Of a DNA stretch of 38,622 nucleotides, positions 5,788-9,341 are shown piece after piece. The position numbers were made by a program, and so were the translations under genes. The notes under the pieces were generated by a model. It was not told where the DNA came from. It saw only the letters and a list, made by a program, of their open reading frames with translations, and made no database searches. Source of the stretch: Acaryochloris sp. IP29b_bin.148 (GTDB taxonomy: Bacteria; Cyanobacteriota; Cyanobacteriia; Thermosynechococcales; Thermosynechococcaceae). The stretch is taken from contig NZ_JANQOY010000040.1 in assembly GCF_028285565.1 (NCBI RefSeq), forward strand, positions 1 to 38,622. The letters run 5' to 3'. Within the stretch, counting starts at the first letter, position 1. Every line of letters starts with the position of its first letter.

Positions 5788-6624
5788 TCACAAAAATTTT
5801 GATCGTTCTGCTTGCGTTTGTTTGAGCAAAACTTCTAAAGCTGACCAGTCTGATTGCTCAATCATAGCTGTGAGCCGATCAAGGCTTTGGCGGTATTGGT
5901 GGAGCGATCGCAACAGTTCTTCCCGGTTGTACTGGGCCATCATGCAGCCGAGTTCGGGGTTGCCGCCCCCCACGCGACTGGTATCGCGAAACCCAGAACT
6001 AGCAAAAGATTGAGCGAGTTTCAGGATCTCTGGATCCGCTTCACTCAAGCAAGCCGTAATTAACGCTGCACTGGTCATTTTAGGCAGGTGAGAAATCCAA
6101 GCCACCGACCGATCATGGACCGTGGGGGAACATTCATAGAGGTTGCAATCTAGTTTACCGACCAGATCTTTCATCGTCTGGATCACATCGTCTGGCGTCT
6201 CAGCTGTCGGTGTCAAAATATAAGGATTGCCCGCAAAGAGCCGAGACTGGGCCGCATGAATTCCCGTTTCTTCACTCCCTGCCATCGGGTGACCGCCAAT
6301 AAACCGGGGCCATAAAGGCGTTAAGCGGTTGACGACCGCTCCTTTAACAGAACCGACATCCGTGAGAATGGCCTCTGGGGATAGATAGGGGATCAGACGA
6401 GTTGCGATCGCATCAATCACGCTCACCGGAGTGCAAATAAACACCACATCCGCAGAGGCAAGAGAGGCGAGATCGGGACTAGCTGAATCGACTGCCCCTA
6501 GCGTGACAGCGTCCTTACAGGTTTGGGGCTGTCGACTGACGCCCAGCACGTTATATCCCACGGCTCGCAAGTCATAGGCTAAAGAACCACCAATTAAACC
6601 CAAGCCAACAATGCCAATCTTCAT
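5788..6624 (-). CDS. tyrA: arogenate/prephenate dehydrogenase
   Basis: TyrA catalyses the oxidative decarboxylation that leads to tyrosine; cyanobacterial enzymes mostly use arogenate and NADP. The 278-aa protein has the Rossmann motif GLGLIGG (residues 7-13), VFICTPVS, TDVGSVKG, and GGHPMAGSEETG containing H112, the position of the catalytic His in the family. The C-terminal helical dimerisation domain is present. SRQPQTC after the second strand, without an acidic residue, fits NADP preference, an inference from known relatives. Its ATG overlaps the stop of the upstream small gene by 4 nt, indicating translational coupling within the apt-permease operon. Confidence 0.93.
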   Translation of the reverse strand: MKIGIVGLGLIGGSLAYDLRAVGYNVLGVSRQPQTCKDAVTLGAVDSASPDLASLASADVVFICTPVSVIDAIATRLIPYLSPEAILTDVGSVKGAVVNRLTPLWPRFIGGHPMAGSEETGIHAAQSRLFAGNPYILTPTAETPDDVIQTMKDLVGKLDCNLYECSPTVHDRSVAWISHLPKMTSAALITACLSEADPEILKLAQSFASSGFRDTSRVGGGNPELGCMMAQYNREELLRSLHQYRQSLDRLTAMIEQSDWSALEVLLKQTQAERSKFL

Positions 6625-6912: not shown

Positions 6913-8790
6913 TTAGTTCAGGTTACTGAGCTTGATACGTGGATCAACAACGGCTAGGAGAAGATCTGCCAGCAAATTACCCACAATCAGCATCACTGCC
7001 CCCATCATTAAGCCTGCCATCACTAAATATAAATCTTGGGCTTGTACAGCTTGCAGCAACAACTGCCCTAACCCCGGCCAGTTAAAGAAGAATTCAGCAA
7101 TAAAGGCACCGCCCAATAAGCTAGAGAATTCAAACCCCAACAGGGTAATCAGAGGATTAACGGCATTACGGAGGGCATGGGTATAGATCACCTTATTTTC
7201 TGGCAAGCCTTTAGCACGGGCCGTTTGGATATAGTTTTGACGCAGAACGTCCAGCATATTGCCGCGAGTAATCCTTTGTAGGCCCGCAAACCCGGTGACG
7301 CTGAGGGCTACAGTGGGCAGAATCATATGCCAGCCCACATCCAAAATCTTGCCGAACCCATTCAGATCCGCATGATCGATGCTGGTCATATCGCCCACGG
7401 GAAATAGGGGCGTACTCTGGGCTAAAAACAGCAGCAGTAAGGCGGTGATAAAGCTGGGGAAGCCTTGACCAATATAGCTGAGGATACGGAGAATGCGATC
7501 GCTCCACTGATTCTGATTCACCGCCCCGATAATGCCCAAGGGAATGGCAATGCTCCAGTTAATCACTAGGGAGGCAATCGCCAATAGCAGCGTATTGGGA
7601 ATCCGCTCCCAAATTAACGCCGTTACCGGTCGCTGATAGCTAAAGCTTTCGCCAAAATCGCCTTGGTAGATTTGTCCCCAATGGCCTTTCCAGATCTGGG
7701 AAAAATCAAAGGTAAAAATATTTTTAAACCAGAGGCCATACTGCTTGATTAAAGAACGATCTTTTTGCCAAACCTGTACCGATTGATCGCCATTGATCAG
7801 GACTACCCGTTCGCCATTATCGGCAAACTGTAGCCCTTGGATCGCCTCTTGTTTGCTATTAAAACTACCTAATGCTTGGTTATCCTTTTGAGACCAGAGG
7901 CGTACTACTTTACCTGCGCTGGTGGCATAGGTGGTGCGATCGGGACTAAAAGCTGCCGAGGTGATCGGTTGGTCCTGTAGTTGATTTAAATCTTGAGTTT
8001 TTAGGGATTTGCCGTCTACATTCCATTGCTGCCAGGTCTGATGATTGACGATGGTATTGAGCAGCGGTCCCTCCGAATTTTGATTAAATTGCAGAGCTGT
8101 TGCTGGCCCCTTCAGCACTAACGTTTGTTGGAGGGCACCATCCGTTTTCCACAGGCGCACTGTTTTGTCTTCACTGCCAGAAGCCAAAAGGCTACCGTCT
8201 TGATTGAAGGCTAGCACTGAGATTGAGCTTTTGTGACCTGTTAGCGCTTTGAAGGCGGTGCCGTCCGTTTTCCACAGGCGCACCGTTTTATCGCCACTGC
8301 CAGACGCGAACATTTGACCGTCGCTACTAAAGGCTAAACAAGTCACCGCAGCCTGGTGACCTGTCAAGGTTTGAACCAGGGTACCATCGGCTTTCCACAG
8401 CTTAATGGTTTGATCTGCACTACCCGAGGCAATCAGCTCACCATCAGGACTAAAGGCTAAGGCTGTAATCCGTCCTTGATGCCCCTTGAGGGTCTTGACT
8501 ACTGCTCCCTTGTCGTCCCAAAGCGTGACGGTATTAGCCCCACCTGTGATGACTTGGCTACCATCTGGCTTAATGGCTATGGCAGTGGTCTTCTCGCTTT
8601 TGAGGGTGGTTACAGAACGGTTTTCTGCCCAGGTATTGCCCAACCCAAATTCTTGGCGTAGCTCTTCGAGGCGCTCTTGAGACATTTGGGGATTATTTTT
8701 GAACTGATCGAGGTAATCGCCAGGGGCCAGATCGACAATATAGAAGGTTAAAATCGATGCCAAAAATAGGGTGATCAGACCTTGAAACAC
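6913..8790 (-). CDS. DppB-type ABC transporter permease with inserted WD40 propeller
   Basis: The protein is a permease of the dipeptide/oligopeptide/nickel ABC family with a large insertion. Residues 1-50 are the first membrane helix and conserved LAPGDYLDQF...ELRQEFGL. Residues about 60-345 form seven WD-type repeats (GHQGRITALAFSPDGELIAS, then SADQTIKLWK and similar). At residue 350 the permease resumes with QYGLWFKN...GDFGESFSYQRPV and about five membrane helices. The EAA-loop region, RAKGLPENKVIYTHALRNAV, is near 525-544. In the family the loop after helix 1 faces the periplasm, so the propeller should be extracytoplasmic. The GTG start is uncertain: the frame stays open upstream through SELLGYTIKR, a normal-looking N-terminus, but without ATG, GTG or TTG. 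It follows apt by 38 nt. No solute-binding protein, partner permease or ATPase is in the window. Confidence 0.92.
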   Translation of the reverse strand: MFQGLITLFLASILTFYIVDLAPGDYLDQFKNNPQMSQERLEELRQEFGLGNTWAENRSVTTLKSEKTTAIAIKPDGSQVITGGANTVTLWDDKGAVVKTLKGHQGRITALAFSPDGELIASGSADQTIKLWKADGTLVQTLTGHQAAVTCLAFSSDGQMFASGSGDKTVRLWKTDGTAFKALTGHKSSISVLAFNQDGSLLASGSEDKTVRLWKTDGALQQTLVLKGPATALQFNQNSEGPLLNTIVNHQTWQQWNVDGKSLKTQDLNQLQDQPITSAAFSPDRTTYATSAGKVVRLWSQKDNQALGSFNSKQEAIQGLQFADNGERVVLINGDQSVQVWQKDRSLIKQYGLWFKNIFTFDFSQIWKGHWGQIYQGDFGESFSYQRPVTALIWERIPNTLLLAIASLVINWSIAIPLGIIGAVNQNQWSDRILRILSYIGQGFPSFITALLLLFLAQSTPLFPVGDMTSIDHADLNGFGKILDVGWHMILPTVALSVTGFAGLQRITRGNMLDVLRQNYIQTARAKGLPENKVIYTHALRNAVNPLITLLGFEFSSLLGGAFIAEFFFNWPGLGQLLLQAVQAQDLYLVMAGLMMGAVMLIVGNLLADLLLAVVDPRIKLSNLN

Positions 8791-8828
8791 CCGCTTGATG
8801 GTGTACCCGAGGAGTTCGCTGCCGATAA

Positions 8829-9341
8829 CTAGTACTCCACTAATACATTGATCAGACAGTCAGGCAGTTTTTGCCGCCCTGCTAAACCTGTCAGCTCGAT
8901 AATAAACCCAAAGCCGACGAGCGTGCAGCCGAGAGGTTGCAGGAGTTGGGCCGTGGCCGCCGCCGTGCCGCCCGTTGCTAGTAAGTCATCAACGACCAAC
9001 ACACGGCTGCCTTGCGGACAGGCATCTTGGTGGATCTCTAAGCGATCGGTGCCGTACTCCAGCTCATATTCCTGGGCATGGACAGCTGCGGGGAGTTTGC
9101 CAGGTTTACGCACAGGCACAAAGCCCGCACCCAGTTGATAGGCTAAGGGTGCGCCAAAAATAAAGCCTCTCGACTCGATGCCCACAACATAGTCAATGGC
9201 TTGATCGCTAAAGTTATCCGTCAACTGGTCGATGATGTAGCGGAGGCCATCAGGATTTTGCAATAAGGTCGTAATATCCCGAAACAGGATTCCTGGCTGG
9301 GGAAAATCAGGAATATCGCGAATCAATGCTTTAAGATCCAT
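8829..9341 (-). CDS. apt: adenine phosphoribosyltransferase
   Basis: Apt converts adenine and PRPP to AMP in purine salvage. The 170-aa protein is of standard length and contains the PRPP-binding motif [13 protein letters not shown] at residues 114-126, the N-terminal [28 protein letters not shown], and the VRKPGKLP loop. The ATG lies about 295 nt from the divergent DUF3038 gene. It appears to be the first gene of the minus-strand operon with the permease, the small protein and tyrA. The functional link of purine salvage with a permease is not obvious. Confidence 0.96.

Follow-up and report, generated by a model that had tools for sequence, protein, structure and literature searches.

How does a WD40 propeller come to lie inside the membrane subunit of a peptide-type importer, and what might it do there? 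The question is raised by one gene in the window, which is the whole stretch of 38,622 nucleotides of Acaryochloris DNA that was analyzed (Table 1). From its GTG, the gene runs for 625 codons in a single frame with no stop, which rules out a pair of overlapping genes. Its product matches the Pfam families WD40 (E = 5.6e-53, 175.6 bits versus a curated cut-off of 27) and, over residues 415 to 620, BPD_transp_1 (E = 9.3e-43, 146.5 bits versus a curated cut-off of 26.4). A sequence-only reading of this DNA had described two permease halves with a WD40 domain between them; the Pfam matches and alignment with plain relatives bear this out and place the domain in the first loop after TM1. Within its own genome, nothing else matches the query over its full length; contigs C132 and C43 carry two more permeases of the type, with frames of 344 and 320 aa, which match only the membrane part of the fused protein.

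TABLE 1 Features of the fused permease locus (positions in the window)
Feature	Position	Strand	Basis
Fused gene, DppB-type ABC permease with nested WD40 propeller	6913..8790	-	625 aa from GTG; open frame and Pfam
TM1 and stretch to insertion point, residues 1-54	8629..8790	-	hydropathy peak 1-19; model helix 2-21
Counterpart of DppB scoop motif (alpha1-loop-alpha2), residues 24-50	8641..8721	-	L014 alignment with 8z1v
Inserted WD40 propeller with linkers, residues 55-347	7750..8628	-	seven blades predicted; boundaries from relatives
Alpha3, remaining membrane helices, coupling region, residues 348-625	6916..7749	-	BPD_transp_1 415-620
Second short insert, 15 residues, 361-375	7666..7710	-	alignment with relatives
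14 coding-like codons ahead of GTG	8791..8832	-	resemble SETFIYVVKR of plain relatives
Adenine phosphoribosyltransferase-like gene (apt), upstream	8829..9341	-	name from reading of protein
Prephenate/arogenate dehydrogenase-like (tyrA-like) gene, downstream	5788..6624	-	name from reading of protein

Where translation of the permease starts is uncertain (8788 to 8832, minus strand): the 14 codons that precede the GTG also look coding, and their differences among four sequences are, by eye, mostly synonymous. No ATG, GTG, or TTG occurs among these 14 codons, nor does one occur in genome G001 (locus L090) anywhere in the frame 5' of the GTG back to its stop. It is possible that translation begins at a rare start codon or is coupled to apt. 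In-frame ATG codons are found farther upstream in two other fused loci, L010 and L012.

Fused proteins align with plain relatives up to ...EFGL and resume at ..QYGLWL; the intervening segment in the plain relatives is just a short turn (DKSWFE, for example). The most divergent of the fused sequences, L012, retains FGLDKTW ahead of the propeller, and we therefore place the insert proper at about residues 55 to 347 (293 residues). The insert that had been delimited from the sequence alone at about 51 to 348 is real, with a small correction of its limits to those given by the plain relatives and L012. The plain ortholog L014 aligns over residues 11 to 328 with residues 4 to 336 of E. coli DppB (8z1v, E = 2.8e-54), and through this alignment residues 24 to 50 of the fused protein correspond to E. 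coli 32 to 58, with FGL, by our own count, at 56 to 58. In E. coli, the alpha1-loop-alpha2 scoop motif of DppB occupies the cleft of DppA, and DppB residues 32 to 62 are not visible without DppA (PMC12136057). Since FGL falls at E. coli 56 to 58, the propeller is attached where the scoop motif ends, ahead of alpha3. The scoop region itself is identical at 24 of its 27 residues among five fused orthologs; the E. coli charged pair E41/R42 is not conserved in the aligned cyanobacterial proteins, fused or plain. The insertion turn accepts additions: the plain permease L094, from a family member, is longer there by about 20 residues. The second insert, just behind helix alpha3, is shared by the five intact fused genes, and neither L012 nor the aligned plain relatives have it; the simplest account of this pattern is a gain after the L012 split or a loss in L012.

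That an assembly or annotation artefact has fused two genes is scarcely credible: the genomes are drafts and the L012 frame is broken, yet the frame is continuous, with the same junctions, in five genomes, including G001, which comprises 20 contigs and is 98% complete. An assembly chimera is thereby ruled out, and read-through of the junctions in related genomes, which had been put forward as a check, is what we found. In the genus (Acaryochloris by its named records), five of seven genomes carry a single full-length fused frame of 644 to 690 aa. In a sixth, G002, which has the same sequence as L012, the fused gene is split over two frames, and the seventh, G006 (82% complete), has no ortholog at E of 1e-60 and yields only paralogs and WD40 genes at 1e-10. 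L012 (2254 to 3977, from the SU_2_1 MAG) has six readable blades in its broken frame; its record name gives a coverage of only 2.28, low enough for a collapsed repeat to be possible there.

Beyond the genus, the gene is common, and the propeller was not encountered among the frames compared. In the family, 28 of 29 genomes (own included) have a match at 1e-60, and all 22 genomes of other genera hold plain frames of 333 to 387 aa. A class-wide sample gave matches at 1e-60 in 300 of 388 genomes and none in the other 88, with frames outside the genus of 304 to 424 aa among the matches listed. Four of 79 loci from named genomes are fused (L009 to L012), and their records belong to Acaryochloris or Acaryochloridaceae; for the remaining 75 the match spans 903 to 954 bases, and 74 of them are plain frames, the exception being L069, which the frame pattern missed. 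DppB searches also returned a long frame of 848 aa in another genome (L147), which looks like an overlapping-frame artefact, and two more long frames of 1006 and 904 aa.

The simplest account of these observations, built on comparison and distribution, would be a single insertion at the existing locus, on the stem lineage of the genus and before the divergence of L012. The insert alone, searched against 145 genomes, gave only partial matches to other WD40 proteins (45 to 58% identity over 125 to 159 residues; 8 of the 145 genomes, own included, at 1e-40), and no donor was identified among them. Base composition carried no foreign signal, with a G+C of 0.499 in the insert against 0.457 before it and 0.487 behind it.

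The gene that received the propeller appears to be a chromosomal one of the DppB type, which in cyanobacteria is often found behind apt. An apt gene lies upstream on the same strand at 82 of 98 loci, namely, at 9/9 fused loci (four of which repeat others) and at 73/89 plain loci, the latter comprising 66/75 of L013 to L087 and 7/14 plain family loci; among the 16 loci without apt, only L035, L065, and L069 have fewer than 800 bases upstream. The tyrA-like gene occurs in the flanks of all nine fused loci, whereas the flanks of the 89 plain loci lack it, and a small frame lies between it and the fused permease. This comparison, which covered apt and the tyrA-like gene, recognized no accessory gene beside the fused gene. 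Separate WD40 and permease genes at this position in relatives had been named as evidence that would speak against a genuine fusion. By tblastn of the insert, and with some flanks short, a WD40-like gene turned up at 1 of 89 plain loci: in L085, a Richelia MAG, it follows directly on the plain permease (7067 to 7891, minus strand) but is encoded on the strand opposite to it.

The fold of the insert was approached with two AlphaFold2 runs, the first with 30 sequences (mean pLDDT of 72.2, with a confident propeller and a weak membrane part) and the second with 50 sequences, including distant paralogs (mean pLDDT of 83.0). In the second model, block pLDDT values were 80 to 97 for residues 61 to 340 and 74 to 90 for 381 to 620, with 52 to 73 for the scoop, the linkers, and the short insert; across both models, residues 61 to 340 scored 76 to 97. 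Both models contain the same 28 strands, one at residues 59 to 63 and 27 more up to 342. These would form seven four-stranded blades, with the N-terminal strand 59 to 63 completing blade 7, where ring closure and strand pairing are read from the strand order and a Foldseek match. If the N-terminal strand completes blade 7 in this way, then both linkers meet, which would explain how a ring fits into a loop. The best solved match to the first model in Foldseek is the seven-bladed 7big (TM-score of 0.86 by target length, 287 columns), and the best by sequence is 2ymu. The closed propeller of about seven blades proposed from the sequence alone thus agrees, as a prediction, with the 28 strands of both models and with the 7big match. 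The pTM of 0.59 means that the placement of the propeller relative to the permease domain is not reliable. Blades 2 to 4 are 58 to 61% identical to one another as protein, and with 62 to 65% identity between them as DNA, a very recent amplification of these blades is unsupported.

On which side of the membrane would such a domain lie? A hydropathy scan of the insert found no hydrophobic segment (best 19-residue mean of 0.88). Outside the insert it gave seven peaks, TM1 and six behind the insert, where the family expectation is six; because of this mismatch, our topology rests on the family and not on the scan. E. coli DppB has six membrane helices and its scoop in the periplasm (PMC12136057), and because one helix precedes the propeller loop, the latter should, by analogy with E. 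coli DppB, be periplasmic. Plain loci L013 to L087 are 68 to 79% identical to the fused protein in their best segments, and the best NCBIfam model is Opp2B, at 247.5 bits versus a cut-off of 350. The fused protein and plain L014 both fall below the cut-off of every NCBIfam model matched, and because Opp2B stays under its cut-off for the fused and plain proteins alike, we give no substrate name.

The reading that we prefer, tentatively and with a little less than even confidence, is that a propeller was inserted into a DppB-type gene and now acts as a side-domain in the periplasm, where it docks or positions a partner, be it the binding protein or another one, much as MalF P2 would do. Comparison gives the site, the turn that joins scoop helix alpha2 to helix alpha3; most simply, the insertion would have happened once, on the stem lineage of the genus. 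With its N-terminal strand completing blade 7, as predicted, the ring of blades would close on itself, and the domain could therefore be a side-knob without breaking the permease fold. The permease would remain a working importer subunit, its scoop region, membrane core, and coupling region nearly unchanged, and would presumably transport a peptide or another ligand of the DppB-type permease family. The propeller would stand in the periplasm beside the point where the scoop enters the cleft of the solute-binding protein, serving as a docking or positioning platform, one face of which, blade 2 above all, may touch the binding protein or another periplasmic partner. A stronger version, in which the propeller is a built-in docking and gating module that holds the binding protein over the channel or lets one permease serve several, seems to us rather unlikely.

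The main rival to docking is that the propeller is a tolerated passenger, i.e., a self-folding domain that landed by chance at a permissive turn, does little harm, and is selected for folding and solubility only. We consider this possible, if doubtful, and much of the conservation data bears on it. The insert evolves faster than the permease, yet under purifying selection: in ten pairs of five orthologs, with the insert taken as 51 to 345 and dS saturated in the pairs involving L010, dN/dS was 0.079 to 0.173 for the insert and 0.012 to 0.031 for residues 346 to 625 (nine of the ten pairs finite). Among four close orthologs, the insert is 74 to 82% identical and residues 346 to 625 are 95 to 98% identical, a difference that fits a passenger; the corresponding values with L010 are 56 to 62% and 89 to 90%. 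Invariant positions in the five orthologs number 129/293 in the insert and 211/237 in the membrane part. Within the propeller, the invariant fraction is 0.36 to 0.56 for the strands and, for the loops, 0.33 (d-a), 0.35 (b-c), 0.20 (c-d), and 0.58 (a-b), so that the a-b turn and strands a to c are the most constant parts. This pattern could reflect folding constraint alone, and the variability of the surface loops relative to the strands is again what a passenger would show, as are the extra residues tolerated at the same turn in L094 and a blade number that may differ in L012. On the other side, the propeller is intact in five genomes down to the insert identities seen with L010, at dS >1.9, where an occasional deletion of a dispensable domain might be expected.

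The conservation of blade 2 is also in excess of what a passenger would lead one to expect. With 28/40 invariant positions versus 96/244 in the other blades (Fisher p = 0.0005; 0.003 after multiplication by seven), it is the most conserved blade in a set of five sequences, although it was chosen post hoc. By the usual WD40 convention, the d-a and b-c loops form the top face of a propeller, and in blade 2 these loops are invariant at 7/9 positions versus 18/56 in the other blades. Several observations count against docking as well: most surface loops outside blade 2 vary, the trait is confined to one genus in the genomes searched, and apt was not found upstream at half (7/14) of the plain family loci.

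WD40 domains usually serve as scaffolds, and the propeller might be a regulatory or spatial tether whose ligand is not the binding protein but, for instance, a wall-linked protein, a peptidase, or another transporter, thereby anchoring the importer or linking it to a peptide supply. A periplasmic precedent is PG1058 of the type IX system, which is described as an outer-membrane-linked scaffold with WD40 repeats (PMC5053529). No candidate partner was found among the neighboring genes, and we regard a tether as improbable.

As possible parts of a complete importer (a DppC-type subunit, two ATPases, and a binding protein), the fused permease's own genome contains four SBP_bac_5, two OppC_N, and three oligo_HPY matches, none of them on the contig of the fused gene. 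The OppC-type protein L111 (396 aa), on contig C6, has no other such match beside it; by eye, a stretch of more than 100 residues separates the first hydrophobic helix of L111 (439 to 1629, minus strand) from the remainder of the protein. Genomes of the genus have four to five SBP_bac_5 matches in 7/7 cases and other family genomes exactly two in 18/22, a count that we do not use as support because some matches are pieces and two of the own four adjoin their own permeases. The suggestion made from the sequence alone that the propeller replaces substrate delivery becomes less likely, because the scoop region is kept in the five orthologs and the genome has four SBP_bac_5 proteins; the other half of that suggestion, that it modifies delivery, may hold.

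Whatever its role, the fusion amounts to a natural domain-insertion experiment, in which a conserved importer subunit has received a whole propeller at one of its functional hinges, in one genus, while the relatives of other genera whose frames were compared are plain. The case makes it testable whether the scoop region of peptide importers can carry a docking module. The same holds for the ability of WD40 propellers to function in the periplasm of bacteria, a setting in which, to our knowledge, they have rarely been described. If the docking or gating reading is true, the propeller would represent a class of importer accessory domain not met in our searches. In the open literature, no report of a WD40 propeller in a type I importer permease appeared in the titles and abstract openings among the matches listed, and no paper combined Acaryochloris, WD40, and "ABC transporter permease." A systematic study of prokaryotic WD40 proteins contains, by a word search, neither "transporter" nor "permease" in its main text (PMC5587647). 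On these searches, the fused gene represents a new domain architecture of a known transporter kind.

Among known systems, the closest solved propellers by sequence are the repetitive 2ymu, which we take to be an N. punctiforme propeller, and the WRAP designs 7bid to 7big; by fold of the first model, the closest are these and 5mzh. WRAP derives from the C-terminal part of a STAND ATPase protein (PMC9218822). Unlike WRAP, the insert has a membrane protein as its host, and blades 2 to 4 of the insert show only the limited mutual identity given above. The periplasmic P2 loop of MalF moves around MalE (PMC8134467). The likeness to P2 is that of a folded periplasmic domain of one permease subunit near a binding protein, with which the insert may be in contact. 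MalF P2 is not a propeller and lies in another loop than the insert described here. Within the permease family, the profiles of YejB and mycoplasma OppB carry about 30 and 70 more positions, respectively, before the part that matches L014, so the length of the N-terminal loop varies in the family; we know of no propeller in either. With the solved DppB/OppB/NikB-type permeases (8z1v, E. coli DppB; 8z21, OppB; 8j5q; and 8wd9), the fused protein shares the BPD_transp_1 core, TM1, the scoop region, and the coupling region, and it differs from them in the 293-residue propeller set between scoop helix alpha2 and alpha3.
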